Source of the DNA: Amycolatopsis umgeniensis
Lineage (GTDB): Bacteria > Actinomycetota > Actinomycetes > Mycobacteriales > Pseudonocardiaceae
Direction: 5' to 3'
DNA: 64,000 nt
Assembly: GCF_014205155.1 (NCBI RefSeq)
Contig: NZ_JACHMX010000001.1
Span: forward strand, 5,332,001 to 5,396,000
Below, in pieces: positions 9,413-57,619 of this stretch. The notes below the pieces were generated by a model. That model was not told the origin of the DNA, searched no databases, and saw only the letters and a program-made list of their open reading frames with translations. Each line of letters starts with the position of its first letter. Position 1 is the stretch's first letter. A program made the position numbers and the translations under genes.

Positions 9413-9463
9413 CCGTGAAGGCCTCCTTCCCTACCCTCAGAGTAGGGAAGGAGGCCTTCACGG
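9413..9463. repeat. GTGAAGGCC long hairpin (copy 1)
   Basis: Perfect 22-bp arms (9413-9434 and 9442-9463) with loop CCTCAGA. The outer stem reads CCGTGAAGGCCTCCTT and the inner stem CCCTAC. It lies between the convergent M14 and AbiEi-like genes and may terminate both. Nearly identical to copy 2 at 10525. Confidence 0.9.
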
Positions 9464-9467
9464 ACCA

Positions 9468-10433
9468 TCAGGCTGCGGTGGCGAGACGAACCTGCGGGCG
9501 CGGGCGAGAAGCCGCGATCTGCCAGGCGGTTGCCAGGTCTGTGACCACGGCAGCCGGATCGTCCAAGAGTTGCGAGGGCAGCGTCTGTACGACGACGATT
9601 CCTGATGTCGCGTACCGGGTGTTCCTGTCCAGGGTCCGCCGGTATCCGGCTCGGCGGAAATGGAAGTCGAACGAATCGATTTCCCATACGAGGCCGACGT
9701 CGTCCCACCACGCGTCCGGCCGTCCCAGATATCTACCGGAAGCGTCGAAGAGTTCGGTATTCCAATGGCTGGGCGGCGTCTTCAGCCGATGGCTGAGCAC
9801 CTTTGCCCGAGACTCGGCCATCGAGCGGATGTCCACCCAGCCGGTCAAGAGACGTCTCGGCACCGCGGTTCCTCGCTGAGTGCCGTGATCGAGTTCCCAC
9901 AGCAGAGCTTTGGGGTGGCATCTGCCTTGTTGGACTGCTTCGATAAGCAGCTCTTCCGACGCCAGCGGATCGGTGAGCCGCCGAACAGCGTCGGTAGTCG
10001 CGCGGATCAGCGGAGCGAGAGGGACACCGTTCCGGTTCGTCGGCGACGGTAGCCGTACGGTCCTTTCCGTGGTGACGAAGCCGATGCTTCGTACCTTGCG
10101 ACCGTGCGGTATCAGCAAATGCAGTCCCGAGTCGTCCGGTAGCGAGGACGGTCGGAGTCCGTGTGGTCGACAGGCTTCGATGCCGCTGAGCATTGCCTCG
10201 GGGCCTGTGTACAGGAGCGCTGCTGTCACCAATTCCGTCGAGGTCGGCTTTTGATCGTGCAGCAGGACGATCCCGGGTAGAAGTCGCTGCCATGGACCAC
10301 CTGGCAAGCATCGGCTGTAGATCGTCTTGCTTGGCATCTCCAATGATTCCAAGTCGGCGACCCGGACAACGCCATTACGGCTTCGCGCTAGCAGCAGTTC
10401 GGGATGCTGTGCCCATCTTCCCCTCTTGACCAC
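9468..10433 (-). CDS. AbiEi/DUF559-like protein with a nuclease-type C-terminus
   Basis: 321 aa from GTG 10433. The N-terminal part (about 1-75) resembles the winged-helix of AbiEi-like antitoxins: VVRVADLESLEMPSKTIYSRC and a GPWQRLLPGIVLL strand. The C-terminal part has the DUF559/Vsr-like layout: SMAESRAKVLSHRL at about 204, then LGRPDAWWDDVGLVWEIDSFDFH, where Asp and E-x-D match a PD-(D/E)xK-type active site. Such proteins are numerous orphans in actinobacteria with no proven function; no partner toxin is adjacent. Its base composition is less GC-biased than its neighbours, and flanking GTGAAGGCC hairpins on both sides hint at an inserted block. Confidence 0.7.
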   Translation of the reverse strand: MVKRGRWAQHPELLLARSRNGVVRVADLESLEMPSKTIYSRCLPGGPWQRLLPGIVLLHDQKPTSTELVTAALLYTGPEAMLSGIEACRPHGLRPSSLPDDSGLHLLIPHGRKVRSIGFVTTERTVRLPSPTNRNGVPLAPLIRATTDAVRRLTDPLASEELLIEAVQQGRCHPKALLWELDHGTQRGTAVPRRLLTGWVDIRSMAESRAKVLSHRLKTPPSHWNTELFDASGRYLGRPDAWWDDVGLVWEIDSFDFHFRRAGYRRTLDRNTRYATSGIVVVQTLPSQLLDDPAAVVTDLATAWQIAASRPRPQVRLATAA

Positions 10434-10524
10434 GAGGTCCAGCCTGTCCGCATGAAACCCGTCCGCGGCAGCCCCACTTTCCGAACCTGTGGATAACTGG
10501 GGTGTTGTGGATAACTCCCGAATG

Positions 10525-10575
10525 CCGTGAAGGCCTCCTTCCCTACCTTGAGAGTAGGGAAGGAGGCCTTCACGG
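10525..10575. repeat. GTGAAGGCC long hairpin (copy 2)
   Basis: Perfect 22-bp arms (10525-10546 and 10554-10575), loop CTTGAGA; the arms are identical to copy 1 at 9413. It sits just beyond the 3' end of sdhB and upstream of the AbiEi-like gene, so it could end the sdh transcript. Confidence 0.9.
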
Positions 10576-10598
10576 ACTTGCGGAGACTGCAGGGAGCG

Positions 10599-11369
10599 TT
10601 AGACGCGCTTGAAGAGCAGGGCGCGCTTGACTTCCTGGATCGCCTTCGTGACCTGGATGCCGCGCGGGCAGGCGTCGGTGCAGTTGAACGTCGTCCGGCA
10701 GCGCCAGACACCCTCGGAGTCGTTCAGGATGTCGAGACGCTCTTCGGCGCCCTCGTCACGCGAGTCGAAGATGAACCGGTGCGCGTTGACGATCGCGGCC
10801 GGGCCGAAGTACGAGCCGTCGTTCCAGTACACCGGGCACGAGGACGTGCAGCAGGCGCACAGGATGCACTTGGTCGTGTCGTCGAACCGGTCGCGATCGG
10901 CCTGCGACTGGATCCGCTCGCGTGTGGGCTCGTTCCCGTAGGCGATCAGGTACGGCTTCACCGCACGGTACGCCTCGAAGAACGGGTCCATGTCGACGTA
11001 AAGGTCCTTGAGCGTCGTCAGGCCCTTGATCGGCGCGATCGTGATGGTCGTCTTCTTGCCGTCCTGCGACAGCAGGTCCTTCATCAGGACCTTGCACGCC
11101 AGCCGGTTGATGCCGTTGATCTGCATCGCGTCGGAACCGCAGACGCCGTGGGCGCACGAGCGGCGGAACGAGAACGTCCCGTCGATGTAGTCCTTCACGT
11201 AGAACAGCAGGTTCAGCAGGCGGTCGGTGCGCTGCGCCGGGACGTCGTAGGACTCCCAGTGCGGCTCGTTGTCGACCTCGGGGTTGAACCGCAGGATCTT
11301 CAGCGTGACGGTGATCGGCGTGTGGTCGGAGGACACGGCCTCCGACTTCTCGGGGGTGGCCGTGGTCAT
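10599..11369 (-). CDS. sdhB: Succinate dehydrogenase iron-sulfur subunit
   Basis: 256 aa. Carries electrons from the SdhA flavin to menaquinone. The three cluster motifs are present: RSCAHGVCGSDAM (with an upstream Cys region, [2Fe-2S]), CILCACCTSSCPVYW and FNCTDACPRGIQ ([4Fe-4S]/[3Fe-4S]). Last gene of a leftward sdhCDAB operon; its ATG overlaps the sdhA stop by one base (TGATG). A long hairpin follows the stop and is the likely transcript end. Confidence 0.97.
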   Translation of the reverse strand: MTTATPEKSEAVSSDHTPITVTLKILRFNPEVDNEPHWESYDVPAQRTDRLLNLLFYVKDYIDGTFSFRRSCAHGVCGSDAMQINGINRLACKVLMKDLLSQDGKKTTITIAPIKGLTTLKDLYVDMDPFFEAYRAVKPYLIAYGNEPTRERIQSQADRDRFDDTTKCILCACCTSSCPVYWNDGSYFGPAAIVNAHRFIFDSRDEGAEERLDILNDSEGVWRCRTTFNCTDACPRGIQVTKAIQEVKRALLFKRV

Positions 11370-13123
11370 CAGTACTTCCGCTCCATCGGTTCGTAGCGGG
11401 TGAAGGTCACCGGCTTGTAGTCCAGTCGGATGTCGGCGGACAGCTCGGCACCCTCCTTGTAGGCCATGGTGTGCCGCATGAAGTTCGTGTCGTCGCGGTT
11501 CGGGTAGTCCTCGCGCGCGTGCCCGCCGCGGGATTCCTTGCGCGCCAGGGCGCCGACGACGAGAACCTCGGCGAGTTCGAGCAGGAAGCCCAGCTCGATG
11601 GCCTCGAGGACGTCGGTGTTGTACCGCTTCCCCTTGTCCGACACGGTGATCCGACCGTAGCGGTCCTTCAGCGACTGCACGTCGGTCAGCGCCTGCTTCA
11701 GCGTGTCCTCGGTGCGGTACACGGAAGCGTGCGAGTCCATCGTCTTCTGCAGTTCGGTGCGGATGTCGGCGACACGCTCGTCACCGTGCTCCGAAAGCAG
11801 GCCCGAAAGCTGCTCTTCGACGATGGTGGTCGGGTTCTCCGGCAGCTCGACGAAGTCGTGCGCCAGCGCGTACTCGGCGGCGGCGATGCCCGCACGACGC
11901 CCGAAGACGTTGATGTCGAGCAGCGAGTTGGTGCCGAGGCGGTTCGAGCCGTGCACGGAAACGCACGCCACCTCACCCGCGGCGTACAGGCCGGGGATGA
12001 CGTTCTCGTTGTCCCGCAACGCTTCGCCGTGGATGTTCGTCGGGATTCCGCCCATCACGTAGTGACAGGTCGGGAACACCGGCACCGGCTCGGTGACCGG
12101 GTCGACACCCAGGTACGTCCGGGAGAACTCCATGATGTCCGGGAGTTTCGCGTTCAGCGTCTCTTCCGGGATGTGCGTGACGTCGAGGACGACGTAGTCC
12201 TTGTTCGGGCCGCAACCGCGGCCCTGCAGCACTTCCTGCACCATCGAGCGGGCGACGATGTCACGCGGCGCGAGGTCCTTGATGGTGGGGGCGTAGCGCT
12301 CCATGAACCGCTCGCCGTCGGCGTTGCGGAGGATGCCGCCTTCACCGCGCACGGCCTCGGAGATGAGGATGCCGAGCCCGGCCAGACCTGTCGGGTGGAA
12401 CTGGAAGAACTCCATGTCCTCCAGCGGCAGGCCCTTGCGGAAGATGATGCCGAGGCCGTCACCGGTGAGGGTGTGCGCGTTCGACGTCGTCTTGAAGATC
12501 TTGCCCGCGCCGCCGGTGGCGAACACGATCGACTTCGCCTGGAAGACGTGCAGCTCGCCGGTGGCCAACTCGTAGGCGACGACGCCGGAGGCGACCGGGT
12601 TGCCGTTCTCGTCCGGGGTGAGCACCAGATCGAGCACGTAGAACTCGTTGTAGAACTCGGTGCCGTGCTTGACGCAGTTCTGGTACAGCGTCTGGAGGAT
12701 CATGTGGCCGGTGCGGTCCGCGGCGTAGCAGGCGCGGCGCACCGCGGCCTTGCCGTGGTCACGGGTGTGCCCGCCGAAGCGGCGCTGGTCGATCTTGCCC
12801 TCGGGCGTCCGGTTGAACGGCAGGCCCATCTTTTCGAGGTCGAGGACGGCGTCGATGGCTTCCTTCGCCATGATCTCGGCGGCGTCCTGGTCGACCAGGT
12901 AGTCGCCGCCCTTGATCGTGTCGAAGGTGTGCCACTCCCAGTTGTCCTCTTCGACGTTCGCCAGCGCGGCGCACATGCCGCCCTGCGCGGCGCCGGTGTG
13001 CGAACGCGTCGGGTAGAGCTTGGTGAGGACCGCGGTGCGCGTGCGCTGGCCGGACTCGATGGCCGCGCGCATGCCGGCGCCACCGGCGCCGACGATCACC
13101 ACGTCGTACTTGTGGAACTGCAT
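11369..13123 (-). CDS. sdhA: Succinate dehydrogenase flavoprotein subunit
   Basis: 584 aa catalytic subunit that oxidises succinate to fumarate with covalent FAD. The FAD-binding GAGGAGMRAA is at the N-terminus, RSHTGAAQGG marks the flavinylation region (His in SHTGAAQGG), and HPTGL, GEGGILRN and GSNRLGTNSL are family motifs. Length is normal. Translation is coupled to sdhB. With SdhC and SdhD it forms complex II at the membrane. Confidence 0.98.
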   Translation of the reverse strand: MQFHKYDVVIVGAGGAGMRAAIESGQRTRTAVLTKLYPTRSHTGAAQGGMCAALANVEEDNWEWHTFDTIKGGDYLVDQDAAEIMAKEAIDAVLDLEKMGLPFNRTPEGKIDQRRFGGHTRDHGKAAVRRACYAADRTGHMILQTLYQNCVKHGTEFYNEFYVLDLVLTPDENGNPVASGVVAYELATGELHVFQAKSIVFATGGAGKIFKTTSNAHTLTGDGLGIIFRKGLPLEDMEFFQFHPTGLAGLGILISEAVRGEGGILRNADGERFMERYAPTIKDLAPRDIVARSMVQEVLQGRGCGPNKDYVVLDVTHIPEETLNAKLPDIMEFSRTYLGVDPVTEPVPVFPTCHYVMGGIPTNIHGEALRDNENVIPGLYAAGEVACVSVHGSNRLGTNSLLDINVFGRRAGIAAAEYALAHDFVELPENPTTIVEEQLSGLLSEHGDERVADIRTELQKTMDSHASVYRTEDTLKQALTDVQSLKDRYGRITVSDKGKRYNTDVLEAIELGFLLELAEVLVVGALARKESRGGHAREDYPNRDDTNFMRHTMAYKEGAELSADIRLDYKPVTFTRYEPMERKY

Positions 13124-13151
13124 GAGGACTCCGCTTAACGTGTGGTGGGCG

Positions 13152-13565
13152 TCAGTTGGCCGAGATACCTGGGTCGAAGGTGAAGATCACCATCGTGCCG
13201 ACGGCGAGGATGAGCACCATCGAGACGTAGAGCACGATCTTCAGCCAGAACCGGGTGCTGTCCTTGCGGGCGTAGTCGTCGATGATCGTCCGCAGCCCGT
13301 TGCCGCCGTGGATTTCGGCGAGCCACAGCATCGACAGGTCCCAGAACTGCCAGAACGGCGAGGCCCAGCGGCCGGCGACGAAGCCCCAGTTGATGCGGTG
13401 CACGCCGCCGTCGAGGATGTTCATGATGAACAGGTGGCCGAGCACCAGCACGATCAGGGCGAGGCCCGAGATGCGCATGAACAGCCAGCTGTAGAGCTCG
13501 AAATTGCTGCGGCGGGCGGCGGCGCGCTTCGGCGCGCGCGGGCGCTCGAGTGCGAGTTCAGACAT
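13152..13565 (-). CDS. sdhD: Succinate dehydrogenase membrane anchor subunit
   Basis: 137 aa from ATG 13565 (MSELALERPRAPKR); an upstream open stretch belongs to a shadow frame. Three hydrophobic helices (SWLFMRISGLALIVLVLGHLF, WASPFWQFWDLSMLWLAEIHGGNGL, WLKIVLYVSMVLILAVGTMVIF) fit the anchor. The start overlaps the sdhC stop, so the two are coupled. It helps bind quinone and heme. Confidence 0.93.
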   Translation of the reverse strand: MSELALERPRAPKRAAARRSNFELYSWLFMRISGLALIVLVLGHLFIMNILDGGVHRINWGFVAGRWASPFWQFWDLSMLWLAEIHGGNGLRTIIDDYARKDSTRFWLKIVLYVSMVLILAVGTMVIFTFDPGISAN

Positions 13566-14008
13566 CAGTGCCCCCCGAACATAACCTCGACGGTGCGCTT
13601 CATCATGAAGAAGGCACCGGGAATCATCACCACGACCCAGATGGCCAGGATGGTCCAGAGCATCGGCTTCTGGAACTTCGGTCCCTTCTCCCAGAAGTCG
13701 ACCAGCATGACCCGGATGCCGTTGAGCGCGTGGAACAGCACCGCGCCGACGAGGCCGACCTCGAGGAGGTTGACTATCGGGGTCTTGTAGGTCTCGATGA
13801 CCTCGTTGTACGTGTCGGGCGACACGCGCACGAGCGCGGTGTCGAGCACGTGCACGAAGAGGAAGAAGAATGTCAGCACGCCGGTGATGCGGTGCAGCAC
13901 CCAGGACCACATACCGGGGTCGCCCCGGTAGAAGGTCCCCTGCCGGCGTGAGGCACCCGCCCGATCGCTCGCTGCCGCCTCAGTGGCGGCGCTAGCCGTG
14001 GTGGACAT
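13565..14008 (-). CDS. sdhC: Succinate dehydrogenase cytochrome b556 subunit
   Basis: 147 aa, ATG 14008, first gene of sdhCDAB. After a roughly 25-residue polar extension, FYRGDPGMWSWVLHRITGVLTFFFLFVHVLDTAL contains the family heme/quinone signature (HRITG) and helix 1; helices 2 and 3 follow (VGLVGAVLFHALNGIRVMLVD and WTILAIWVVVMIPGAFFM), with the likely heme-ligand His in FHALNG. A start nearer residue 25 would still keep all helices. Confidence 0.93.
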   Translation of the reverse strand: MSTTASAATEAAASDRAGASRRQGTFYRGDPGMWSWVLHRITGVLTFFFLFVHVLDTALVRVSPDTYNEVIETYKTPIVNLLEVGLVGAVLFHALNGIRVMLVDFWEKGPKFQKPMLWTILAIWVVVMIPGAFFMMKRTVEVMFGGH

Positions 14009-14250
14009 CGGTGAACGGCCTCCAACGTCATGGCTTGGGCCCGCTGACCGCTGGTTTCCGCGCCTGCGCCGGGTCGCCCACCTGGGGACGGCTCCGGCGA
14101 CGGTGCCGAGATCATGGTCATCGAGCGTGGATAAAAGGGATGCTAGACCCGCACCTCACGGTGGGCTCACCTCCGGGTTCCTCTGTGTGATGGACCAGAC
14201 ATCGAGGCCTCGCACGATCGAGTGACGGGACCCGCGTAACTCACCGGTTC

Positions 14251-14263
14251 GTCCACTGTGGAC
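14251..14263. repeat. TCCACWGTGGA palindrome (non-coding copy)
   Basis: GTCCAC-T-GTGGAC is a perfect palindrome, extended one pair by C/G on each side. Further exact cores occur inside genes at 28472-28482, 28484-28494 and 56502-56512. Confidence 0.7.
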
Positions 14264-14476
14264 GCGACGGTCGCCACAGGTCGTGCCCCGGAGGGCCCTG
14301 AAACGGTGCGTGACGATCTTCGGTCCTTCACGCGGCCAGGGGGCCGTTTATTGCCAGCGATGATCACCGTAAGTACTCCCTCCGTCGCGCTCGCGATTCA
14401 TGAGTAAACGTTTGTGTTACGTAGCGTGCCTTTCCTATGGCAGCAAAGCGGCCGTTAGGTACCGTCTCTCGGTCGA

Positions 14477-14500: not shown

Positions 14501-14542
14501 TCTTCGGACCATCCGCTGGATCAGCGGGGAGGGAGACACACG

Positions 14543-15694: not shown

Positions 15695-15701
15695 GCTCCA
15701 C

Positions 15702-21435: not shown

Positions 21436-21488
21436 GTCTTGAAGGCCCCCTTTGAGACGTTCAACGTCTCAAAGGGGGCCTTCAAGAC
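21436..21488. repeat. GAAGGCC long hairpin (copy with ACGTT centre)
   Basis: Perfect 26-bp arms (21436-21461 and 21463-21488) around a single C. The outer part is GTCTTGAAGGCCCCCTTT and the inner part GAGACGTT. It differs from the GTGAAGG members by TTGAAGG, with matched change in both arms, and shares its ACGTT-N-AACGT centre with the hairpin at 35715. Confidence 0.9.
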
Positions 21489-21711: not shown

Positions 21712-21759
21712 CGTGAAGGCCCCCTTCCCGAGGCGGAGCCGGGGAAGGGGGCCTTCACG
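21712..21759. repeat. GTGAAGGCC long hairpin (copy beside the coiled-coil gene)
   Basis: 18-bp perfect outer arms, CGTGAAGGCCCCCTTCCC at 21712-21729 and its complement at 21742-21759, around a 12-nt GC-rich centre. It lies 10 bp beyond the stop of the coiled-coil gene and is a likely terminator for it. Confidence 0.9.
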
Positions 21760-21769: not shown

Positions 21770-22858
21770 TCAGTCGGTGGTCTCGTCGGTGCCGTCGGCC
21801 TTCGCCTTGGCGTCGGCAGCCTTGGGCGCCCGGCCGTTGCGCGAGCTGCGGCGCGGCTGACGCGGGGCGGGCGGCGGCGGGGAGATCTGCTGCACGGCCG
21901 GGCCGCCGCCGAGCATGAGCTCCGCGAAGGTCGCCATGGCCTCGTCCAGCTGGCCGCCGATGCGGCGCACGGACTCGTCGTTGCTCTTGCGCACCAGCGT
22001 GTCGACCGAGTCGGTGTCCGGCTGCTTCTGGAGCGTGCTCTCGACCTTCGACAGGCCGCTGCGGATCGAGCCGTCGAGGTCGCCGAGGCGCCCGGTGAAG
22101 CCGTCTTCGACCTTGTCGAGCCGCTCGGCCAGGTCGTCGAGCCGCGAGGTGACCTTCTCGAGGCGGTCGCCGAGCCCGTCGAGGCGCTCCGAGGCGTCGA
22201 TCATCTCGCCGGTCTCGGTCAGCGCGGTCTTCAGCGCCTCGGTGTTCGCGGTGAGGCTTTCCTTGGTGGCCTTGTCGAGGTTCTCGACGCGGGTACGCAG
22301 CTCGCGGTCGACGGTGTCGACGCGGTCGCGCAGCACCGACTCGGCCTGCTCGACGCGCTCGCGCACCGGGCCGATCACCGACTGGGGCAGCGAGTCGGTC
22401 TTGACGTCCTGCTTGTCGAGGTGCGAGCCGAGTTCGTCGAGACGACGGTGGATGTTCTGGAGCTTGTCCTCAAGCCCGTCCATCCGGCCAGCGACGCCCT
22501 CGAACTTCGCGGCCATGCCGTCGAGGCGGCCGTCGAGCTGGGCGAAGGGCTTGGCGAGCTTGTCGACGATGCTTTCGACGGCGCGGGTCAGCGCGGCGAT
22601 CGCGGTGTCCTGCGCTTCGAGCCGCGACATGGTCTCGTCGAGGCGCTCGGCGAGCACGCTGGTCTCGGTGCGGTCGGGCATCTCCGAGAGGCGCTTGCGG
22701 ACCGCGCCGAGCGAGTCGACCGGCGCCAGACGTGCGTAGATGTCGTCGAGCGCGTCGAAGATCTGCTGCTGTTCGCTCTCACGCACTTCGGCCGCGCGCA
22801 CCAGCATGTTGCGCATCCGGTCGAAGGACGGGGCTGCAATGTGGTTGTCAGTGGTCAC
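21770..22858 (-). CDS. Long coiled-coil protein of unknown function
   Basis: 362 aa, ATG 22858. Almost the whole protein from about residue 10 to 300 shows heptad-like Leu/Val/Ile spacing with repeats such as LDGRLDGMAAKFEGVAGRMDG, LDDLAERLDKVEDG and LGDRLEKVTSRLD, resembling apolipoprotein/tropomyosin-like helices. There is no membrane segment, signal peptide or enzyme motif. The tail is Pro-rich then basic (PPPPAPRQPRRSSRNGRAPKAA), possibly binding nucleic acid or membrane. A cytoskeletal or scaffold role is possible; I do not recognise a named family. Confidence 0.8.
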   Translation of the reverse strand: MTTDNHIAAPSFDRMRNMLVRAAEVRESEQQQIFDALDDIYARLAPVDSLGAVRKRLSEMPDRTETSVLAERLDETMSRLEAQDTAIAALTRAVESIVDKLAKPFAQLDGRLDGMAAKFEGVAGRMDGLEDKLQNIHRRLDELGSHLDKQDVKTDSLPQSVIGPVRERVEQAESVLRDRVDTVDRELRTRVENLDKATKESLTANTEALKTALTETGEMIDASERLDGLGDRLEKVTSRLDDLAERLDKVEDGFTGRLGDLDGSIRSGLSKVESTLQKQPDTDSVDTLVRKSNDESVRRIGGQLDEAMATFAELMLGGGPAVQQISPPPPAPRQPRRSSRNGRAPKAADAKAKADGTDETTD

Positions 22859-25462: not shown

Positions 25463-26707
25463 TCAGACGACCGTGAGGCGGTTCTCGAAGGTCTCGACGA
25501 GCTTGCGCCACTCGGACTGCTCGGCGTCGAACGGAGCACTCGGCTCGAGGCGCGTGGGGTCCGGCCGCAGCACGAACGACACGAGCCAGCCGAGGCTTTC
25601 GTTGGCGGCGAGCGCGGTGTCGACGCTGTCGTCCTCGGCCCACTCGGCGGCGTCGGTGATCAGTTCGACGGCCAGCTCCAGCTGGGTCGGGTCGATCGAC
25701 TCGGGGCCCTCGGCGATGTCGTCGGCGATGCCGTTGAGCACGTAGGTGTTCTCGGCGTCGACGTCGATCTCGAGCTCGCCCGCGGTGGCCTTCGTGGTCA
25801 CCTCGTCCCAAGTGGACACTTGGGCGAGATCGTTGTCCGCCAGCTCCTTGCCGTCCGCGATCGCGCGGATGAGCGCCTTCTCCGAGGAGAAGACGTCGAT
25901 CTCGCCCTCGCTGCCGAGGAAGATCGGCTTGTCGTCGAGGTAGCAGCGCAGCGTGTAGTACTCGGCGCCGGAGGTGATGATCTTGATCGGATCGATGCCG
26001 ACCTCGCCCCAGAAACCGACGGGCTCGTCGTCTTCGTCCTCGTCTTCGTCATCATCGACGTCTTCGAGGCCCTCGGCGGCCGCGGCCTCGGCTTCGGCGG
26101 ACTCCGCGAGGAAGGTCGCGAGCTCCTCCGCCGTCTGCTCCAGCACCTTCTCGTCGACGTCGGGAGCGGTCACCAGACCGTCGATCGCGTCGAGCACGAT
26201 GTCCCACTTCTCGGACACGGCCTGCGAGAGGTCCGCCCAGAGGCGCTCGCCGTCGCGGCCGGAGAAGGGCAGCGTGCCCTGATCCAGCAGCGAGAAGCTC
26301 TCGTGCGCGTCGAGGACCTCGTGGACGTCGTCGAGTTCGCACACGTCCGCGAGCGAACGCACGATGCCGATGATCTCGGCCAGCTCGCCCAGCGTCCACT
26401 GGTCCGGCTTCTCGGCGACGAGCTCGGGGACGCCCACCAGGTCGTAGGTGTGGTCGTCGTCCGGGATCAGCTCGGGGACGTTCAGCGCCGGTACGACCTC
26501 CCACGCGGGGTGGTCGAGCAGGTCGTGCTGCTCTGAAGTCCGCACGAACGCGGCTAGATGCGCGGCGTCCGGGAAGGCGTACAGGTCTTCCTCGTCGCCG
26601 AGGAAGGCTTCCCACTCCTCGCCGTCTTCCCGCCAGCGCGGCGCCCAGAGAGTGACGACGTCACCCTGTGGCAGGCCGAGTTCGATCGGGATGATGTCCT
26701 GTGCCAT
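25463..26707 (-). CDS. Acidic actinobacterial protein of unknown function
   Basis: 414 aa, ATG 26707 with AAGGA close upstream. Very acidic overall, with a run of Asp/Glu at about residues 215-228 (DVDDDEDEDEDDE). No signal peptide or membrane helix, so cytosolic. Segments such as LWAPRWREDGEEWEAFLGDEEDLYAFPDAAHLAAFVR and FWGEVGIDPIKIITSGAEYYTLRCYLDDKPIFLGS look conserved and may be two repeats of a small fold. Relatives are sometimes labelled 'primosomal protein' in databases, which I would not trust. The neighbouring helicase gene is divergent. Confidence 0.8.
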   Translation of the reverse strand: MAQDIIPIELGLPQGDVVTLWAPRWREDGEEWEAFLGDEEDLYAFPDAAHLAAFVRTSEQHDLLDHPAWEVVPALNVPELIPDDDHTYDLVGVPELVAEKPDQWTLGELAEIIGIVRSLADVCELDDVHEVLDAHESFSLLDQGTLPFSGRDGERLWADLSQAVSEKWDIVLDAIDGLVTAPDVDEKVLEQTAEELATFLAESAEAEAAAAEGLEDVDDDEDEDEDDEPVGFWGEVGIDPIKIITSGAEYYTLRCYLDDKPIFLGSEGEIDVFSSEKALIRAIADGKELADNDLAQVSTWDEVTTKATAGELEIDVDAENTYVLNGIADDIAEGPESIDPTQLELAVELITDAAEWAEDDSVDTALAANESLGWLVSFVLRPDPTRLEPSAPFDAEQSEWRKLVETFENRLTVV

Positions 26708-26860
26708 TCCTTAGCCCTCTCGGATTACCGCCTGTGTGCGCGCGGCCGGATGATGCATGCCCGGTGGGTGCGCGGTACCGCGAAGCCTACGGGTTTCCGC
26801 CGATGGGCGCGATCACCCCTGGGCAAGAAGCGACCAACGGATGGCACGATAGGTCCTCTG

Positions 26861-29371
26861 ATGACTCTTACAGACCTCCTGCCTGCGGATCCCGACCCCG
26901 ACTCGCTGTTCGAAGCCTTCTCCACCTGGACGGCCGAGCGCGGGTTAGAGCTGTACCCCGCGCAGGAGGAGGCCATCATCGAAGTGGTCTCCGGCGCGAA
27001 CCTGATCCTTTCGACGCCGACGGGGTCCGGGAAGAGCCTGGTCGCCGTCGGGGCTCACTTCACCGCGCTCGCGTACGGCCGCCGCAGCTACTACACGGCA
27101 CCGATCAAGGCGCTCGTCTCGGAGAAGTTCTTCCAGCTCATCGAGATCTTCGGCGCGGAGAACGTCGGCATGATGACCGGCGACTCGGCGGTGAACGCCG
27201 ACGCGCCGATCATCTGCTGTACGGCGGAAATCCTGGCGAACATGGCGTTGCGGTTCGGTGCCGACGCGCCGGTCGGCCAGGTCATCGCGGACGAGTTCCA
27301 CTTCTACTCCGAGCCCGATCGCGGCTGGGCGTGGCAGGTGCCGCTGCTGGAACTGCCGAAGGCGCAGTTCGTGCTGATGTCGGCGACGCTGGGCGACGTG
27401 TCGTTCTTCGAGAAGGACCTCACCCGCCGGACCGGGCGGCCGACCGCGGTGGTCACCTCGGCCGAACGGCCGGTGCCGCTCACCTTCCGTTACGCGCTGA
27501 CGCCGTTGCACGAGACGATGTCCGAGCTGCTCAACGGTGGTCAGTCGCCGGTCTACGTCGTGCACTTCTCGCAGGCGGCGGCGATCGAGCGCGCGCAGAC
27601 GCTGATGAGCATCAACGTCACCACCAAGGCGGAGAAGGAGGCCATCGCCGAGCTGCTCGGTGACTTCCGCTTCGCCGCCGGGTTCGGGAAGACGCTCTCG
27701 CGGCTGGTGCGGCACGGCATCGGCGTGCACCACGCCGGAATGCTGCCGAAGTACCGGCGCCTGGTCGAGCAGCTCGCGCAAGCCGGGCTGCTGAAGGTGA
27801 TCTGCGGGACCGACACGCTCGGCGTCGGCATCAACGTACCTATTCGCACAGTGGTCTTTTCAGCGCTGACGAAGTACGACGGCGTGCGGCAGCGGCATCT
27901 CAAGGCGCGCGAGTTCCACCAGATCGCCGGGCGCGCGGGCCGGGCGGGTTACGACACCGACGGTTACGTCGTCGTGCAGGCACCGGACCACGTCGTCGAA
28001 AACGCCAAGGCGCTGGAGAAGGCGGGCGACGATCCCAAGAAGAAAAAGAAGATCGTCCGCAAGAAGGCGCCCGAAGGGTTCGTCAACTGGACGGAGAGCA
28101 CCTTCGACCGGCTGATCGCGGCCGAGCCGGAGCCGCTCACGTCGAGCTTCCACGTCAGCCACTCGATGCTGCTGAACGTCGTTTCCCGGCCGGGCAACGC
28201 GTTCGACTCGATGCGGCATCTGCTGGAGGACAACCACTCCGACCGCCCCACCCAGCGGAAACTGATCCTGCGTGCGATCGCGATCTACCGCGCGCTGCTC
28301 GCCGCCGGTGTGGTGGAACGGCTCGACGAACCCGACGAGCAGGGCCGGATCGTCCGGCTCACCGTGGACCTGCAGTTCGATTTCGCGCTGAACCAGCCGC
28401 TTTCGCCGTTCGCGCTGGCCGCGATCGAACTGCTCGACCTCGAATCGCCGTCGTATCCGCTCGACGTCGTGTCCACTGTGGAATCCACAGTGGACAATCC
28501 GAGGCCGGTCCTTTCGCAGCAGCAGTTCAAGGCGCGCGGCGAGGCCGTGCAGGCGATGAAGGCCGAAGGCATCGAGTACGACGAGCGGATGGAGCTGCTC
28601 GAGAACGTCACGTACCCGAAGCCGCTGGAGGAACTGCTGGAAGCGGCGTATTCCCGCTACCGGCAAGGACATCCGTGGGTCGACGACTACGAGCTCAAGC
28701 CGAAGTCCGTCGTGCGCGACATGTACGAGCGGGCGATGAACTTCGTCGAGTACATCGGTTTCTACCAGCTCGCGCGGTCGGAAGGGCTGGTGCTGCGGTA
28801 CCTCACCGACACCTACGACTCGCTCCGGCACACGGTGCCCGACGAGGCCAAGACGGAACCGTTGCAGGACCTCATCGAGTGGCTGGGTGAACTGGTGCGC
28901 CAGGTCGACTCGAGTCTCCTGGACGAATGGGAAGCGTTGCGGCATCCCGAAGAGGAGGGCCCGGTTTCGGCTCGTCCGCCGTCCGAGCCGCCCGCGGTCA
29001 CGCGGAACGAGCGCGCCTTCCGGGTGCTCGTGCGGAACGAACTGTTCCGGCGCGTGGAGCTGGCGTCGCGGCGTGCCTATTGGGCGCTCGGCGAGCTGGA
29101 CTCCGCGTCGGGCTGGGACGCGGACGCGTGGGAAGACGCCATCGAGGACTACTTCGACGAGCACGAAACGCTCGGCATCGGGCCGGACGCGCGCGGGCCG
29201 CAGTTGCTGATCATCGAGAAGGAGCCGGAGATCTGGCGGGTGCGGCAGATCTTCGACGATCCGGCGGGCGACCACGACTGGGGTATCGGCGCGGAGGTCG
29301 ACTTGGCCGCTTCGGACGAGGCGGGCTCGGCGGTCATCCGGATCACGGCGGTGGACCGGCTCGGGGGCTGA
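26861..29371 (+). CDS. Ski2-like DExH-box RNA helicase
   Basis: 836 aa from ATG 26861; the frame is open upstream but overlaps the divergent gene. Motif I is STPTGSGKS (51-59), motif II DEFH (144-147, the DExH form), motif III SAT, and motif VI HQIAGRAGRAGYD. A C-terminal half of about 400 residues lacks a recognised catalytic motif and may match the DUF3516 type of actinobacterial helicases. ATP-dependent RNA unwinding and turnover is inferred. Oddities: a short lower-GC codon patch at 27838-27870, and a 27-nt palindrome at 28470-28496 within the gene. Confidence 0.88.
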   Translation: MTLTDLLPADPDPDSLFEAFSTWTAERGLELYPAQEEAIIEVVSGANLILSTPTGSGKSLVAVGAHFTALAYGRRSYYTAPIKALVSEKFFQLIEIFGAENVGMMTGDSAVNADAPIICCTAEILANMALRFGADAPVGQVIADEFHFYSEPDRGWAWQVPLLELPKAQFVLMSATLGDVSFFEKDLTRRTGRPTAVVTSAERPVPLTFRYALTPLHETMSELLNGGQSPVYVVHFSQAAAIERAQTLMSINVTTKAEKEAIAELLGDFRFAAGFGKTLSRLVRHGIGVHHAGMLPKYRRLVEQLAQAGLLKVICGTDTLGVGINVPIRTVVFSALTKYDGVRQRHLKAREFHQIAGRAGRAGYDTDGYVVVQAPDHVVENAKALEKAGDDPKKKKKIVRKKAPEGFVNWTESTFDRLIAAEPEPLTSSFHVSHSMLLNVVSRPGNAFDSMRHLLEDNHSDRPTQRKLILRAIAIYRALLAAGVVERLDEPDEQGRIVRLTVDLQFDFALNQPLSPFALAAIELLDLESPSYPLDVVSTVESTVDNPRPVLSQQQFKARGEAVQAMKAEGIEYDERMELLENVTYPKPLEELLEAAYSRYRQGHPWVDDYELKPKSVVRDMYERAMNFVEYIGFYQLARSEGLVLRYLTDTYDSLRHTVPDEAKTEPLQDLIEWLGELVRQVDSSLLDEWEALRHPEEEGPVSARPPSEPPAVTRNERAFRVLVRNELFRRVELASRRAYWALGELDSASGWDADAWEDAIEDYFDEHETLGIGPDARGPQLLIIEKEPEIWRVRQIFDDPAGDHDWGIGAEVDLAASDEAGSAVIRITAVDRLGG
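28470..28496. repeat. 27-nt perfect palindrome made of two TCCACWGTGGA units, inside the helicase gene
   Basis: TGTCCACTGTGGA (28470-28482) and TCCACAGTGGACA (28484-28496) are exact complements around a single A. The codons are gtg tcc act gtg gaa tcc aca gtg gac, using rare act and aca threonine codons, which suggests constraint on the DNA rather than the protein. Confidence 0.75.
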
Positions 29372-29413
29372 AGGGGACTTTCCCCGCATGTCATGCGGGG
29401 AAAGCGCCCTTCA
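29369..29413 (+). terminator. GAAGGG long hairpin after the helicase gene
   Basis: 22-bp arms with two mismatches and a single-nt centre: TGAAGGGGACTTTCCCC outer and GCATG inner. It starts at the helicase stop codon (TGA is its first triplet) and is a degenerate member of the GTGAAGG hairpin family. Confidence 0.75.
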
Positions 29414-29469
29414 CCGCGTGAGATGAGGTGAAGGTTTCCTTCAGTTCACGGGGGAGCGGCGCGGTGAGA

Positions 29470-35714: not shown

Positions 35715-35757
35715 CTGTGTGGAAATAGGGACGTTGAACGTCCCTATTTCCACACAG
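35715..35757. terminator. Perfect 21-bp hairpin after the sugar transporter operon
   Basis: CTGTGTGGAAATAGGGACGTT (35715-35735 as left arm) pairs perfectly with 35737-35757 around a single G. No T-run. The centre ACGTT-G-AACGT matches the hairpin at 21436, while the outer part is unrelated. It lies between convergent operons and may terminate both. Confidence 0.8.
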
Positions 35758-51714: not shown

Positions 51715-51769
51715 GTCCGTGAAGGCCTCCTTGAGGGACCCAGGGTCCCTCAAGGAGGCCTTCACGGAC
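51715..51769. repeat. GTGAAGGCC long hairpin (GAGGGACC inner stem)
   Basis: Perfect 26-bp arms (51715-51740, 51744-51769) with centre CAG. The outer part is GTCCGTGAAGGCCTCCTT and the inner part GAGGGACC. Lies 60 bp beyond the amidohydrolase stop and is its likely terminator. Confidence 0.9.
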
Positions 51770-51828
51770 CGAGGCCTGGGATGTGACCGTGCCCAGAATG
51801 CCAGTAGGTACTCAAGGCACTGTTGGTC

Positions 51829-53025: not shown

Positions 53026-54161
53026 GCTCCGTTCCCGGCCACGGCGGCCGACAGCGCGAGCAGCGGCCGCACGTCGGATTCGATGTCCGCGCCGCCGCCG
53101 GGGAGCACGAGTTTCGCCCGCCCGTCGTTCTCCTCGCCCGCGGTCTGCCGGGCGATCGCCGTCTTCAGCGCCTCCGCCGCCGCTCGCGGATCGTCGACGG
53201 CGAGTGCGGTCAGATCGGTTTCCAGGTACGGACTCAGTTGGACGAGCCCGTCCCGGATCTCGATCACCCGGCGGTAGTAGTGGCGGTGGACCGTACGCGG
53301 ACGCCAGCGCTCCCACGGCCCCTGTGGCGTGGTCCGGAGCACGATGTTCGGATAGACCTCGGCCAGCGCGGTCCACAGGGGCGTGAGCCGTTCGTGGTGC
53401 CGCCGGTGCTGGCGACGGCGTCGCAGCGCGGCGAACCGCGCGCGGACGCCGGGATAGGTGATCCCCGCGAGGAAGAGCACGATCCCGAGGAGCACCAACG
53501 GGACGGCGACGGTGAGCAGGAGCGGGATCGACGGCCCGAAAGCCCAGGCGATCACGATGTAGAGCGCGCGGAAGACGCTGCCCACCGAAAGGGCGATCAG
53601 CCCGGCCGCGCTGAGTTTCAGCCCGGTCCTCAGATGGCGGTCCGCGGTGCGGATGTAGCGGAAGATCCACCAGGCGCACGCGGACAGGCCGTAGATCAGG
53701 TACAGCCCGGCGCCCAGGTAGAACAGCGCCACCCCGGGCTCGTGCACGAGTTTCGGGCTCAGCGCGAGTCCGCGTGCCCGCGGCGGGGTGACGGCCATGG
53801 CGACCAGCATCAGCGCGATCGCGCCGGACAGCGGGATCAGCTCGAAGAGGACCCGTCGCGGTCTGCGCGGGCCCAGCGCGGAGCCGAGGAAGACGATCAG
53901 CAGTGCGCAGACGCCGATGGCGAGCAGGACGTTGTTGACGAGGCGGCCGGTGCCCTTGCCCGTCAGCCCGTCGAGCCAGCCGGAAATGACCTTCTGCTGG
54001 GCGAGGAAGGAACCGGCGACGCAGACGATCGTGATGGTGATCGCCCAGTTCGGCAGCACTCGCGGCGCCCGGTACGTCTGGTAGATCCGCCAGGCGAGCG
54101 CTGTCGCGAACAGCGCCATGGCCACGACGTTGAGAGGGGAGAACAGTGAGTTCACAGCCAC
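53022..54161 (-). CDS. MAB_1171c-like multispanning membrane protein
   Basis: 379 aa from GTG 54161 (GTG 54155 also possible). About seven hydrophobic helices (about 10-25, 39-52, 74-95, 105-125, 145-170, 185-205, 215-235) followed by a roughly 140-residue cytoplasmic C-terminal domain beginning LTPLWTALAEVYPNIVLR with WRPRTVHRHYYRRVIEIRDGLVQL, characteristic of MAB_1171c-type (DUF6545) proteins. These are usually next to XRE regulators and ImmA-like peptidases, as here. Transport or signalling is guessed; nothing is proven. Confidence 0.82.
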   Translation of the reverse strand: MAVNSLFSPLNVVAMALFATALAWRIYQTYRAPRVLPNWAITITIVCVAGSFLAQQKVISGWLDGLTGKGTGRLVNNVLLAIGVCALLIVFLGSALGPRRPRRVLFELIPLSGAIALMLVAMAVTPPRARGLALSPKLVHEPGVALFYLGAGLYLIYGLSACAWWIFRYIRTADRHLRTGLKLSAAGLIALSVGSVFRALYIVIAWAFGPSIPLLLTVAVPLVLLGIVLFLAGITYPGVRARFAALRRRRQHRRHHERLTPLWTALAEVYPNIVLRTTPQGPWERWRPRTVHRHYYRRVIEIRDGLVQLSPYLETDLTALAVDDPRAAAEALKTAIARQTAGEENDGRAKLVLPGGGADIESDVRPLLALSAAVAGNGA

Positions 54162-54673
54162 CCTTGATGGTCGCCCAGCGCGCCTTGGACACGGCGGACG
54201 TCATCGTCGTCGGCGCGACGGGGAATCGTGTAGTTCAAGACCGACGCCCATTCGAGGATGATGGTCGCCACGGTCTCGGCTTCCCATTCGTGCGCCTCAT
54301 CGTAGGAGGTGCGGCGTAAGGCGCGGTGTACGGCGTCGCCGTCGAGCCCGGGCGCGGGGCCGCGCAGGAAATCGGCGGGTTCGGCGTCCCCGCCGGGATG
54401 GTGATCGGCGAGCATATGCCCGAGTTCGTGCAGGATGATGTGATCCTGATGGGATTTCGTGGTCTCCTGCTGGAAGAAGATGTAATCGGCCGAACCGGTG
54501 GCGATCCAGCAGCCGAACGGGCCGGGGACCTCCAGCGGATACGGCATCAGCCGGATCGGCCTGCCGCGCTGCTCACCGAGCCGTTCGCAGAGCACACCGA
54601 CGTCGAGCGGTGGTTCGATGTCGAGCTTGTTCAGCATCTTCCGGCACCGTTTGCGGAGCTCGCGTTCCTTCAT
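54152..54673 (-). CDS. ImmA/IrrE-like zinc metallopeptidase
   Basis: 173 aa, ATG 54673. Zincin motif ILHELGHMLADH (HELGH at 82-86) with downstream HEWEAETVA (Glu131 or Glu133) as third ligand. No signal peptide, so cytosolic, like ImmA which cleaves the XRE repressor ImmR. It overlaps the XRE gene by 4 bp, and the membrane gene overlaps its 3' end by 10 bp. Cleavage of the adjacent XRE repressor is inferred. Confidence 0.85.
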   Translation of the reverse strand: MKERELRKRCRKMLNKLDIEPPLDVGVLCERLGEQRGRPIRLMPYPLEVPGPFGCWIATGSADYIFFQQETTKSHQDHIILHELGHMLADHHPGGDAEPADFLRGPAPGLDGDAVHRALRRTSYDEAHEWEAETVATIILEWASVLNYTIPRRADDDDVRRVQGALGDHQGWL

Positions 54674-55062
54674 CGGCTTTCGCCCGGCTGATCGCGCTCG
54701 GCCCGCTCATAGCGCTCGACGAGTTCCAGCAGGTCCATGACCTGCCGCCGGCCCTGCGGGGAAAGCTCCTGCGCGCGCATGGCCATGAGCTTCGCTTCCC
54801 CGACGGGCTGCGCTTCCTGCTCCTCGAAGAAGTAGGTGATCGGGACTCCGAAGAGTCGCGCCAGCGCCTCGACGTAGTGGATCTTCGGATTGATCCGTTT
54901 GCCCGTGGCGAGTTGCTGGAGGTACGCGGGCGACATGGCGGGCCCGCCGGCGCGATCGATCGCCGCCGACAGCTCGCGATAGCTGTGCGGGGCGCCTTCG
55001 TCCGCGCGTACCGAGTCGATCAGCGCGCTCAGTTTCTGGGCGAAGGTCTGGTGCGGCGACAT
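54670..55062 (-). CDS. XRE-family repressor-like regulator
   Basis: 130 aa, ATG 55062. Helix-turn-helix in KLSALIDSVRADEGAPHSYRELSAAIDRAGGPAMSPAYLQQLATGKRINP, followed by ALARLFGVPITYFFEEQEAQP and a C-terminal helix ending RAERDQPGESR. Similar proteins (SCO4441-like) precede HELGH peptidases. First gene of the operon; a 362-bp spacer with two predicted RNAs lies upstream on the opposite strand. Confidence 0.9.
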   Translation of the reverse strand: MSPHQTFAQKLSALIDSVRADEGAPHSYRELSAAIDRAGGPAMSPAYLQQLATGKRINPKIHYVEALARLFGVPITYFFEEQEAQPVGEAKLMAMRAQELSPQGRRQVMDLLELVERYERAERDQPGESR

Positions 55063-55131
55063 GGTCCCCCGTTCGTTCCATGATCCCGTTCTGTAGTGGG
55101 AGTGTAACGCGATTCAGCCTGTCCGCAGCTG

Positions 55132-55160
55132 TTGACAGCCTATGTATGCAGTGGTTTACA
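55132..55160 (+). promoter_or_regulatory. Promoter for candidate sRNA 1
   Basis: TTGACA (55132-55137), 17-bp spacer, TTTACA (55155-55160). The -35 is consensus; the -10 is moderate. Start would be near 55167. CTGTC-N10-GACAG overlaps the -35 region and could be an operator. Confidence 0.5.
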
Positions 55161-55166
55161 GTTGTG

Positions 55167-55249
55167 AGCGGTTTCGTGCCGTGTCCTGGCCTCTCGCTCC
55201 GAAATCCGTGCCCTGGGGGTGTACGGACAACGGAGTGAGAGGCGTTTTT
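55167..55249 (+). ncRNA. Candidate small RNA 1 with intrinsic terminator
   Basis: About 83 nt. A stem of GCCTCTCGCTCCG (55189-55201) with CGGAGTGAGAGGC (55231-55243), 13 bp with one G-U, closes over an inner TCCGT/ACGGA stem, and is followed by G then TTTTT (55245-55249), a proper intrinsic terminator. A TTGACA-N17-TTTACA promoter precedes. No open frame with a ribosome binding site lies inside. I do not recognise a known family. Confidence 0.55.
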
Positions 55250-55290
55250 CCAGGTGGGTGCACAAGATCGTGCTCGATGTAGTACGCTTG

Positions 55291-55388
55291 GGCAGCCAAG
55301 GTTGATCGCCATCAGGCGAACCCTTGGCCTAGGCCTGTTGCCGGAGGTCGACCCCCAGGGCTTCCGGTGACAGGCCCCTTTATTTTTC
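55291..55388 (+). ncRNA. Candidate small RNA 2 with two hairpins and terminator
   Basis: About 98 nt. Hairpin 1 (55295-55328): GCCAAGG/CCTTGGC enclosing TCGCC-ATCA-GGCGA. Hairpin 2 (55332-55376): GGCCTGTTGCCGGA pairs with TCCGGTGACAGGCC (two G-U) over a 17-nt loop, then CCTTTATTTTT (55377-55387). -10-like TAGTAC at 55280-55285, -35 weak. Nested perfect stems plus a U-tract are rare in this genome, so a stable RNA is likely. No known family recognised, including 6C or 4.5S RNA. Confidence 0.6.
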
Positions 55389-55424
55389 CGACGTGGGCTG
55401 AAAGCGTCCTTCGCGCTGGCCGAG

Positions 55425-55877
55425 TCAGGGCATGAGCGTGGCCGCGAGGGTGCCGCCCAAATCGAAACAGGCCGCCAGATCCTCTTTGTCCGGTTCGCCG
55501 GTGACGAGGACCGGGGAAGCCGCACGCTCCCAGCCGAGGCCGGTGGTGATGCCCTCGATCCCGCGCACGGTGCCCGCGGTGTCGTTGTTGCCGTGCACGA
55601 AGAACCCGAACGGACGTCCTCGCGTGGCGTCCAGGCACGGGTAGTAGACGGTGTCGAAGAAATGCTTCAGCGCGCCGGACATGTAGCCGAGATTCGCCGG
55701 GGTGCCCAGCAGGTAGCCGTCCGCGGCGAGGACGTCGGGCACGGTCGCGCCCAGCGCCGGACGGCGTACGACGTCGACGCCCTCGATGTCCGGATGGTTC
55801 GCGCCGGAGAGCACGGCTTCGAACATCGCCTGCGTCGAGGGCGACGGCGTGTGGTGGACGATCAGCAACTGGGCCAC
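55425..55877 (-). CDS. Flavodoxin-like FMN-dependent protein
   Basis: 150 aa from GTG 55877. FMN loop LLIVHHTPSPSTQAMFEAV at the N-terminus, then GYLLGTPANLGYMSGALKHFFDTVYY, the WrbA/flavodoxin flavin-side loop. Probable quinone reductase or flavodoxin. Starts 5 bp after the phosphohexomutase stop, so same transcript. Confidence 0.88.
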   Translation of the reverse strand: MAQLLIVHHTPSPSTQAMFEAVLSGANHPDIEGVDVVRRPALGATVPDVLAADGYLLGTPANLGYMSGALKHFFDTVYYPCLDATRGRPFGFFVHGNNDTAGTVRGIEGITTGLGWERAASPVLVTGEPDKEDLAACFDLGGTLAATLMP

Positions 55878-55882
55878 GGTCG

Positions 55883-57520
55883 TCAGGCCAAGCGGGACTC
55901 GATGTCGGCGCGGAGCGCGGCCAGTCGGGCGTCCGCGGCGGCGCGCGCCTCGGCGAGGTCGCCGGTCACCGCCTGCTTCACCTGCAGGTACGCCTTCAGC
56001 TTCGGCTCGGTTCCGGACGGCCTGATGACCACGCGCACGCCTTCACCGGTCAGGCGCAGGACGTCGGCGTCGGGCAGCAGATCCTCCATCGTGACGTCGG
56101 TTCCGCCCAACGCCGCGGGAGGAGCGGCGCGCAGGCCCGCCATCAGCTTCTCCCGTACCGACAGATCGGTGACCCGCAACGAAACCTGATCCGTCACGTG
56201 CACTCCGTGCCGCACGGCCAGTTCGTCGAGGACGTCCAGCGGGCCGCGGCCCGCCGCGCGCAGGGAAGCGGTCAGGCCCGCGGCGAGCACGGCGGCGGAG
56301 ATGCCGTCCTTGTCGCGCACGAAACCGGGGTTCACGCAGAGGCCGAGAGCCTCCTCGTAGGCGAACACGAGACCGTCGCCCGCGCGGACGAGCCATTTGA
56401 ACCCGGTCAACGTCTCCGCGTACCGCGCGCCGAACTCCTTCGCGACCTCGCCGAGCATCGACGACGACACGATCGTCGTGGCCACCAACGGATCCACGTC
56501 GTCCACAGTGGACAGGACATGCCAGCCGAGCAGGACGCCCGTTTCGTCGCCGCGCAGCATCCGCCACGAACCGTCCCGTTCGCGGACACCCAGCGCGCAC
56601 CGGTCGGCGTCGGGATCGAGCGCGATCGCCAGCTCGGCGTCCACTTCGGAGGCCAGTGCCAGCAAGAGATCCGTCGCTCCCGGCTCCTCCGGGTTCGGGA
56701 AGGCGACCGTCGGGAAGTCGGGATCCGGCGCGGCCTGCTCGGCCACCACGTGGAGATCGGCGAACCCGGCGCGGGCGAAAGCGGCGCGCAGGGTCTCCGC
56801 GCCGACGCCGTGCAACGCCGTCGCGGCGACCTTGACCTCGCGTTCCGGTCCACGCGGGAGGAGCGCGACCTTGACGAGGTACGCGTCAAGGAGTTCGTCG
56901 CCCAGTACTTCGGCGCCCGGCGCGCGCGGCACGCTGATCGCCGGAGGCGCGGCCTCGATGGCCTGCTCGATCTGGCCGTCCGACGGCGGGACGATCTGGC
57001 CGCCTGTCGCGTCGTAGAGCTTGTAGCCGTTGTCGGCGGGGGGATTGTGCGACGCGGTGATCTGGATACCCGCGACGGCACCGAGTTCCAGCACGGCGAA
57101 CGCGAGCACCGGAGTGGGCAACGGTCCGGGCAGCACCTTCACCGCGAAGCCGTCGGCCGTCAGCACCTCGGCGGCGGCCTTGGCGAAGGCTTCCGAACCG
57201 TGCCGCGCGTCGCGGCCGACCACGACGACCCCGCCCGCGTGTCCTCCGGCCCGCAGCCAGGCCGCGACCCCGGCCGTCGTGCGGGTCACGACCGCGACGT
57301 TCATCCCCTGCGGCCCCGCGCGCACCGGGCCGCGCAGCCCGGCGGTGCCGAACTCGAGCGGGCCGGACATCCGGTCCGCGAGTTCGTCCGCCGCACCGGT
57401 TTCGCCGCCCATCGCGCGGGCGAGGATGTTCTGCAGCTCGACACGGGAGTCGTCGTCCGGATCGTCGGCGATCCAGCGGAACGCCCGATCCCGGAGATCC
57501 GGGGTCAAGGAAGTCGTCAC
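55883..57520 (-). CDS. Phosphohexomutase (phosphomannomutase/phosphoglucomutase family)
   Basis: 545 aa from GTG 57520. Phosphoserine loop ITASHNPPADNGYKLY, metal loop DPDADRCAL (Asp-x-Asp-x-Asp), sugar loop EEALG and phosphate loop RPSGTEPKLKAY. Long form, as in PgcA/PGM2 that also act as phosphopentomutases. Given its location beside PNP, conversion of (deoxy)ribose-1-phosphate to the 5-phosphate is plausible, linking phosphorylases to deoC; the database label would be phosphomannomutase. Contains a GTCCACAGTGGAC palindrome at 56501. Confidence 0.93.
   Translation of the reverse strand: MTTSLTPDLRDRAFRWIADDPDDDSRVELQNILARAMGGETGAADELADRMSGPLEFGTAGLRGPVRAGPQGMNVAVVTRTTAGVAAWLRAGGHAGGVVVVGRDARHGSEAFAKAAAEVLTADGFAVKVLPGPLPTPVLAFAVLELGAVAGIQITASHNPPADNGYKLYDATGGQIVPPSDGQIEQAIEAAPPAISVPRAPGAEVLGDELLDAYLVKVALLPRGPEREVKVAATALHGVGAETLRAAFARAGFADLHVVAEQAAPDPDFPTVAFPNPEEPGATDLLLALASEVDAELAIALDPDADRCALGVRERDGSWRMLRGDETGVLLGWHVLSTVDDVDPLVATTIVSSSMLGEVAKEFGARYAETLTGFKWLVRAGDGLVFAYEEALGLCVNPGFVRDKDGISAAVLAAGLTASLRAAGRGPLDVLDELAVRHGVHVTDQVSLRVTDLSVREKLMAGLRAAPPAALGGTDVTMEDLLPDADVLRLTGEGVRVVIRPSGTEPKLKAYLQVKQAVTGDLAEARAAADARLAALRADIESRLA
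56501..56513. repeat. TCCACWGTGGA palindrome inside the phosphohexomutase gene
   Basis: GTCCAC-A-GTGGAC, perfect. In the gene it reads ctg tcc act gtg gac, with the rare codon act. Confidence 0.7.
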
Positions 57521-57566
57521 CGAGTCAGCCTACGGGTACGCAGGAAAGGGTGCGATCGATCATGGT

Positions 57567-57619
57567 CGCGTGAAGGCCCCCTTCCCTCTGCTCAGCCGAG
57601 GGAAGGGGGCCTTCACGCG
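57567..57619. repeat. GTGAAGGCC long hairpin (pnp/mutase spacer)
   Basis: Perfect 22-bp arms (57567-57588, 57598-57619), loop TGCTCAGCC; outer CGCGTGAAGGCCCCCTT, inner CCCTC. Placed 6 bp after the PNP stop and 46 bp before the mutase GTG; likely terminates or attenuates the PNP transcript. Confidence 0.9.

Follow-up and report, generated by a model that had tools for sequence, protein, structure and literature searches.

What are the long hairpins that recur in a 64,000-nucleotide stretch of the Amycolatopsis umgeniensis genome (RefSeq assembly GCF_014205155.1, contig NZ_JACHMX010000001.1, positions 5,332,001 to 5,396,000 of the forward strand; hereafter the window), and what brought them there? 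An original prediction, made from the sequence of the window, had picked out six copies with a constant outer and a variable, perfectly paired inner stem at 9413, 10525, 21436, 21712, 51715 and 57567, all of which lie exactly where it had placed them (Table 1). We consider it fairly likely that these are palindromic elements of ~45-60 bp, of the same kind as those that form the ends of a hairpin-gene-hairpin unit in the window, and that the protein encoded by that unit drives their spread. The hairpins are thus probably mobile DNA of a previously undescribed kind that has settled behind genes.

Dispersal of the hairpins

Searching the 9.23 Mb host genome (G000) for a 45-bp core, TGAAGGCC[CT]CCTT-N4..34-AAGG[AG]GGCCTTCA, returned 196 occurrences, compared with 0 for a reversed-pattern control, so the hairpins are not confined to the window. 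Palindromes of score at least 15 numbered 50 in a real 464-kb region versus 0 in one first-order Markov copy. Across 60 genomes, the core was found at 108-270 copies in 14, at 1-18 copies in seven and not at all in 39, while a looser pattern applied to 150 genomes of the order gave 125-297 matches in six sampled members of the clade described below, 15 in another member of the genus (G016) and 0-6 in the rest. Plasmids and phages held no match to an 86-base stretch containing the type B hairpin. Close relatives of the host, as judged by a neighbouring gene, include A. azurea, A. coloradensis, A. regifaucium, A. thailandensis and A. pittospori.

Rather than a single sequence with interchangeable inner stems, the hairpins comprise several types, named A-F; every type has a distinct inner stem, and some also differ in the outer flank. 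Within the window, arm complementarity was 100% at 51715-51769 and at 21436-21488, 96% at 57567 and at 9413, and 100% over 18 bp at 21712, with 12 nt between the arms; the 88% over 32 nt at 10525 includes an unpaired flank, the core itself being paired. The perfect pairing originally described does not extend to every copy genome-wide, as 234 of 2662 stem cells were unpaired (121 copies, six types). Most of these sit beside the loop or at one of two type A positions, although outer mismatches are under-counted because copies were selected by their outer arms. Seven window stretches, comprising the six hairpins and another at 29360, had predicted RNA folds of -42.3 to -64 kcal/mol. Their z values ran from -7.4 to -11.0, and no stretch was equalled in stability by any of its own 200 shuffles. 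The hairpin at 29360 had been taken for a degenerate seventh copy (at 29369), and proved to belong to a different, looser family. No part of the window matched Rfam at the gathering score.

A hairpin-gene-hairpin unit at the sdhB locus

A gene at 9468-10433 lies between hairpins 9413 and 10525 and on its own fills the roughly 1.1-kb unit, with no toxin gene inside. The locus adjoins a gene that we call sdhB on the basis of its iron-sulphur Pfam domains, and we compared it in 25 genomes, excluding G018 for an assembly gap there. The unit gene was present in 18 of the 25, and the two flanking hairpins were of the same type in all 18 units (16 pairs found by script; G021 and G076 each had one imperfect hairpin, read by eye from the sequence). 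These units were of type A (G000, G002, G007, G030), type B (G017, G069), type C (G006, G013), type D (G014, G015, G019, G021, G031, G076), type F (G066) and three further types (G008, G029, G060), and no such hairpin pair was detected at the locus in the seven genomes lacking the gene (G003, G005, G022, G028, G063, G070, G072). Thirteen of the 14 high-copy genomes were examined here, and all 13 carried a unit with TGAAGG-class hairpins (some TGATGG). In the low-copy group we examined five genomes (G003, G005, G008, G022, G028), none of which carried one. Twelve of the 13 form one clade, with G029 as the independent case.

Within that clade, unit proteins flanked by the same hairpin type were 80.4-91.0% identical (n = 23 pairs), whereas those flanked by different types were 61.1-79.1% identical (n = 82). 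The pyrimidine phosphorylase PYNP (assigned by Pfam, ~9 kb away) showed no such difference, with medians of 93.8 and 93.6%, respectively. Types A, B, C and D formed clades in the protein tree, with F sister to D; the PYNP tree rejected the grouping of A (p = 1e-100), D (p = 4e-44) and C (p = 6e-4), but not of B (p = 0.80). The gene and its flanking hairpins thus appear to have been inherited together and exchanged as one unit between backgrounds. To the left of the unit lies either of two alternative genes, shuffled relative to hairpin type, which makes the left flank uninformative as a type control.

The unit protein and its relatives

We found 588 homologs of the unit protein, named in their sources as hypothetical, AbiEi or DUF559, the last of which is related to Vsr. 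In model and fold comparisons, the C-terminal domain matched the Vsr/EDxHD-type nuclease fold, as in the homing endonuclease I-Bth0305I, and E207, D240, E251, D253 and H258, candidate counterparts of the EDxHD positions, were invariant in 57 of 57 aligned homologs. The N-terminal part gave a modelled fold match to AbiEi (6y8q) and Rv2827c (1zel). The unit protein did not reach the AbiEi Pfam cut-off (AbiEi_4, 13.2 bits versus a cut-off of 25), and AbiEi Pfam matches at E up to 1 occurred in 12 of the 57 homologs (best 0.0078). As modelled, the protein thus resembles AbiEi at its head and a Vsr/EDxHD nuclease domain at its tail.

In the bacterial family to which Amycolatopsis belongs, 51 of 60 genomes had matches to the gene family, and the host genome has seven copies of it. 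Six of these copies have a hairpin within 116 bp, all six hairpins being different, with L347 and L349 bearing one on both sides, and the seventh (L353) has none nearby; L352 and L353 (G000 C1:5732025 and 5738409) lack the usual nuclease active-site motif. Among the next 20 best homologs, taken by rank (four from Amycolatopsis), 18 had a hairpin of score at least 12 within 400 bp: 15 upstream, 12 downstream and nine on both sides. The corresponding numbers for 191 background genes of similar length were 10 upstream, 37 downstream and one on both sides, the latter with hairpins of two different families. Where a gene bore hairpins on both sides, the two matched each other in 11 of 11 cases (0 of 20,000 permutations). 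Outside the bacterial family the picture was mixed: of six homologs examined, out of a separate 20 chosen there, three had a hairpin no more than 300 bp away that reached score 12, and one more scored 11.

Third-position GC of the unit gene is 0.69, compared with a median of 0.89 for called genes, and for this reason our simple gene caller missed it. Together with L348-L353, the unit gene spans third-position GC values of 0.69-0.81, low for the genome, as is often the case in foreign or mobile genes.

Position behind genes

The placement next to gene stops described in the original prediction was borne out: in six regions of 400-464 kb, the median distance from a TGAAGG hairpin to the nearest stop codon was 19 nt (n = 67). 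Of 73 such hairpins, 36 lay in convergent gaps, 31 in tandem gaps, two in divergent gaps and four within called genes, compared with 269 convergent, 706 tandem and 297 divergent background gaps of at least 40 nt, representing enrichment between convergent genes (Fisher p = 5e-8) and depletion between divergent genes (p = 9e-6). Some of these context calls are wrong, since the script used drops genes with low third-position GC, the unit gene included. Position makes a 3'-end role likely and, taken alone, leaves terminator function plausible.

Comparing orthologous sites across six species, we found a hairpin of a named family in at least two species at 18 of 166 intergenic slots, and 46 of the 67 species pairs at those 18 slots had no hairpin family in common. 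The slot of the 21436 hairpin, for example, holds type E in G030 and G076, type D in G021 and other hairpins in G018 and G019. A hairpin related to that at 29360 occupies the orthologous slot in G076.

What spreads the hairpins

Beyond the observed dispersal, the flanking of the gene, the match of protein version to flanking type, the invariant residues and the position behind genes, we infer a sequence of binding, cutting, copying by repair and replacement of one unit by another. The unit protein would bind the palindrome, probably as a dimer, and nick or cut at or near it, after which repair would copy the hairpin into new sites, and copies landing behind stop codons would be tolerated there or would be of use as hairpins at 3' ends. 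At a given locus, a unit would be supplanted by one of another type, with the older dispersed copies persisting, which may be why each genome holds a mixture of types. The enzyme class known from such palindromes, the REP (repetitive extragenic palindrome)-associated tyrosine transposase (RAYT) that the original prediction had suggested looking for, was not found here: PF01797, the sole transposase family searched, was detected in 0 of 40 genomes of the genus compared with 5 of 14 control genomes, and another enzyme stands in that place. We lean slightly towards the broader proposal of a second, independently evolved REP-type class, in which a homing-endonuclease-like protein takes the place of the RAYT, recognises the 45-60 bp palindrome that belongs to it and spreads this through cutting and repair. 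Every paralog would then drive a hairpin family of its own, rival units would oust one another from the same chromosomal site, and the 3'-end hairpins of many genes would be rewritten between species.

If each unit spreads its own hairpins, dispersed copies should match the unit of their genome. With the unit hairpins left out, the unit's own type was present among dispersed copies in all five regions with the unit, was commonest in G030 (4 of 9) and G021 (7 of 12), and was tied in G000 (4 of 17). Several observations nevertheless weigh against protein-driven spread: the own type was not commonest in G019 (1 of 12) or G076 (1 of 7); in G060 it accounted for 16 of 48 places listed outside the unit (18 of 50 once the two unit places are counted), with another type making up most of the rest; and G005 has hairpin copies with no unit at the sdhB locus. 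The prediction is therefore only partly borne out. A degenerate pattern, which also catches other types, gave counts of 41, 71 and 109 in three genomes whose units belong to other types versus 0, 0, 2, 6, 6 and 17 in six without, and its listed places include none from G008 or G029. Earlier units would explain the mixed types, and so would another mover. An alternative that we hold to be unlikely, though of real weight, makes the protein a regulator akin to type IV antitoxins, or else a repair nuclease, for which the hairpins serve as operators or substrates; their spread would then be due to something else, for example homologous recombination or a conventional transposase working in trans. 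In line with this, AbiEi autoregulates through inverted repeats (PMC7319586), a hairpin lies upstream of 15 of the 20 family homologs, and the transposase search, restricted to PF01797, leaves room for another mover, in addition to the type mixtures and the case of G005. Regulation, however, leaves unexplained why matching hairpins stand on both sides of the gene, why hundreds of copies lie behind unrelated genes and why the nuclease-like residues are invariant.

A reading of the hairpins as transcription terminators only, their likeness arising via selection and local duplication, draws on the short distance to stop codons, the convergent enrichment and divergent depletion, and the stable RNA folds. 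We nonetheless find it very improbable. Of the definition of an intrinsic terminator, the GC-rich hairpin is present and the U-tract is missing, as only 1 of 121 copies has TTTT no more than 12 nt from one of its ends. Among the 47 hairpins that could be oriented, sense-strand G.U and A.C mismatches were about equal (26 versus 22, p = 0.67), giving no sign of selection on RNA pairing. Neither a common 26-position core in 108-270 copies per genome nor the link between flanking type and gene version is accounted for, the latter speaking against termination as the whole story. We give as little credence, or slightly less, to the differing inner stems having been made in place by gene conversion between arms, as first suggested, or by template switching at replication forks. 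Some copies do have one self-folding arm, as template switching would produce (in L035, at positions 107, 421 and 563, one arm has itself turned into a short hairpin), and paired double changes do occur within types (39 cells, exceeding the shuffle maximum in B, C and F but not in A, D or E). Unpaired cells within types are, however, six times as numerous (234 versus 39), and inner stems mark separate types linked to protein clades, A, B, C, D and F each flanking their own gene version. What stands of the original reading is a dispersed, apparently mobile hairpin adjoining gene stops, and what is not supported is conversion between arms as the main source of its inner stems.

Other features of the window and genome

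Table 1. Hairpins and unit gene in the window (positions counted from its first nucleotide)
Position	Strand	Feature	Remarks
9413..9463		Type A hairpin, 3' end of unit gene	Same type as 10525; 7 nt past stop of convergent gene 8158-9405
9468..10433	-	Unit gene, 321-aa protein	Open reading frame; AbiEi-like part ~residues 4-200, predicted Vsr/EDxHD-type nuclease domain ~202-310
10525..10575		Type A hairpin, upstream of unit gene	23 nt past stop of gene 10599-11369 (sdhB by Pfam domains)
21436..21488		Dispersed hairpin, type E, inner TGAGACGTT	
21712..21759		Dispersed hairpin, type C-like	10 nt past stop of gene 21770-22858 (-)
29360..29422		Looser hairpin, different family (CTGAAGGGGACTTTCCCCGCATG)	Overlaps end of gene 26558-29371
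35715..35757		Perfect hairpin, another family (GTGTGGAAATAGGGACGTT)	Resembles hairpin beside paralog L350 (G000 C1:1012388-1013323)
51715..51769		Dispersed hairpin, type B, inner GAGGGACCC	
57567..57619		Dispersed hairpin, type C, inner CCCTCGG-like	6 nt past stop of gene 57626-58432 (-)

The host genome also contains other palindrome families, and a separate one around CGTTTAGCCCGCTAAACG, in a region of G000, is likewise found mostly behind genes. Fifteen of 64 Amycolatopsis genomes, the host not among them, carry an element resembling a miniature inverted-repeat transposable element (MITE), with the terminal repeat CAGGGTC[ACGT]CGGC[AG]AAGTCG and a length of 258-666 bp where both ends were found (examples are G018 region 217464-217854, L302, L306, L311 and L313). 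Half-arms of hairpins of various families flank it in many of the 30 loci examined, with an exact 11-bp duplication of the loop in one copy (L306) and 2-8 of 11 positions matching in five others. We considered the TGAAGG arms as ends of a larger transposon and rejected this, as the long inverted repeats seem to belong to a separate MITE that has inserted at the apices of hairpins.

Relation to known systems and significance

The system works like REPs, including REP doublets forming hairpins (REPINs), and their RAYTs, yet falls outside REP/RAYT on both enzyme and tag. The two (for REP/RAYT see PMC3116915, PMC2817692 and PMC3733652, and on REPs also PMC12306157) share short extragenic palindromes in hundreds of copies (here 196, and only 4 of 73 hairpins fell within called genes), one gene with the same palindromes on either side (here 18/18 at the sdhB locus and 11/11 genes with both), and several gene-palindrome pairs per genome, each of its own type. 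They differ in that RAYTs are Y1/HUH tyrosine transposases, whereas the protein here has a predicted Vsr/EDxHD-type nuclease domain with an AbiEi-like head, and in that the hairpins are long and near-perfect, with no regular end tag (GTAG in 5/121, CGTC in 9/121). The modelled Vsr-like fold is shared with the EDxHD homing endonuclease I-Bth0305I (on homing endonucleases see PMC10448857), but here a free-standing gene with an AbiEi-like head lies between two hairpins, palindromes are dispersed and cleavage is putative. AbiEi, the antitoxin of a type IV toxin-antitoxin system, binds inverted repeats (PMC7319586) and, like Rv2827c, has a putative match in the modelled N-terminal fold; the unit differs from AbiEi in its fused nuclease-like domain and in lacking a toxin gene. 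MITEs and insertion sequences that insert in REPs (PMC1525189) are likewise dispersed, extragenic and short, but the hairpins here appear themselves to be the target of a separate MITE. Among the open-licence PubMed Central titles and abstracts that our searches listed, none connects an AbiEi, DUF559 or Vsr-like gene with dispersed palindromes.

The literature ties REP palindromes to one enzyme class, the RAYTs. If our proposal is true, an unrelated nuclease-type partner would mean that bacteria reached dispersed extragenic palindromes more than once, and the mechanism by which such repeats spread, an open question, would be open to direct testing. An actinobacterial protein family now called hypothetical, AbiEi or DUF559 would likewise gain a likely function, and mobile DNA would be seen to supply, and replace, the hairpins behind many genes.

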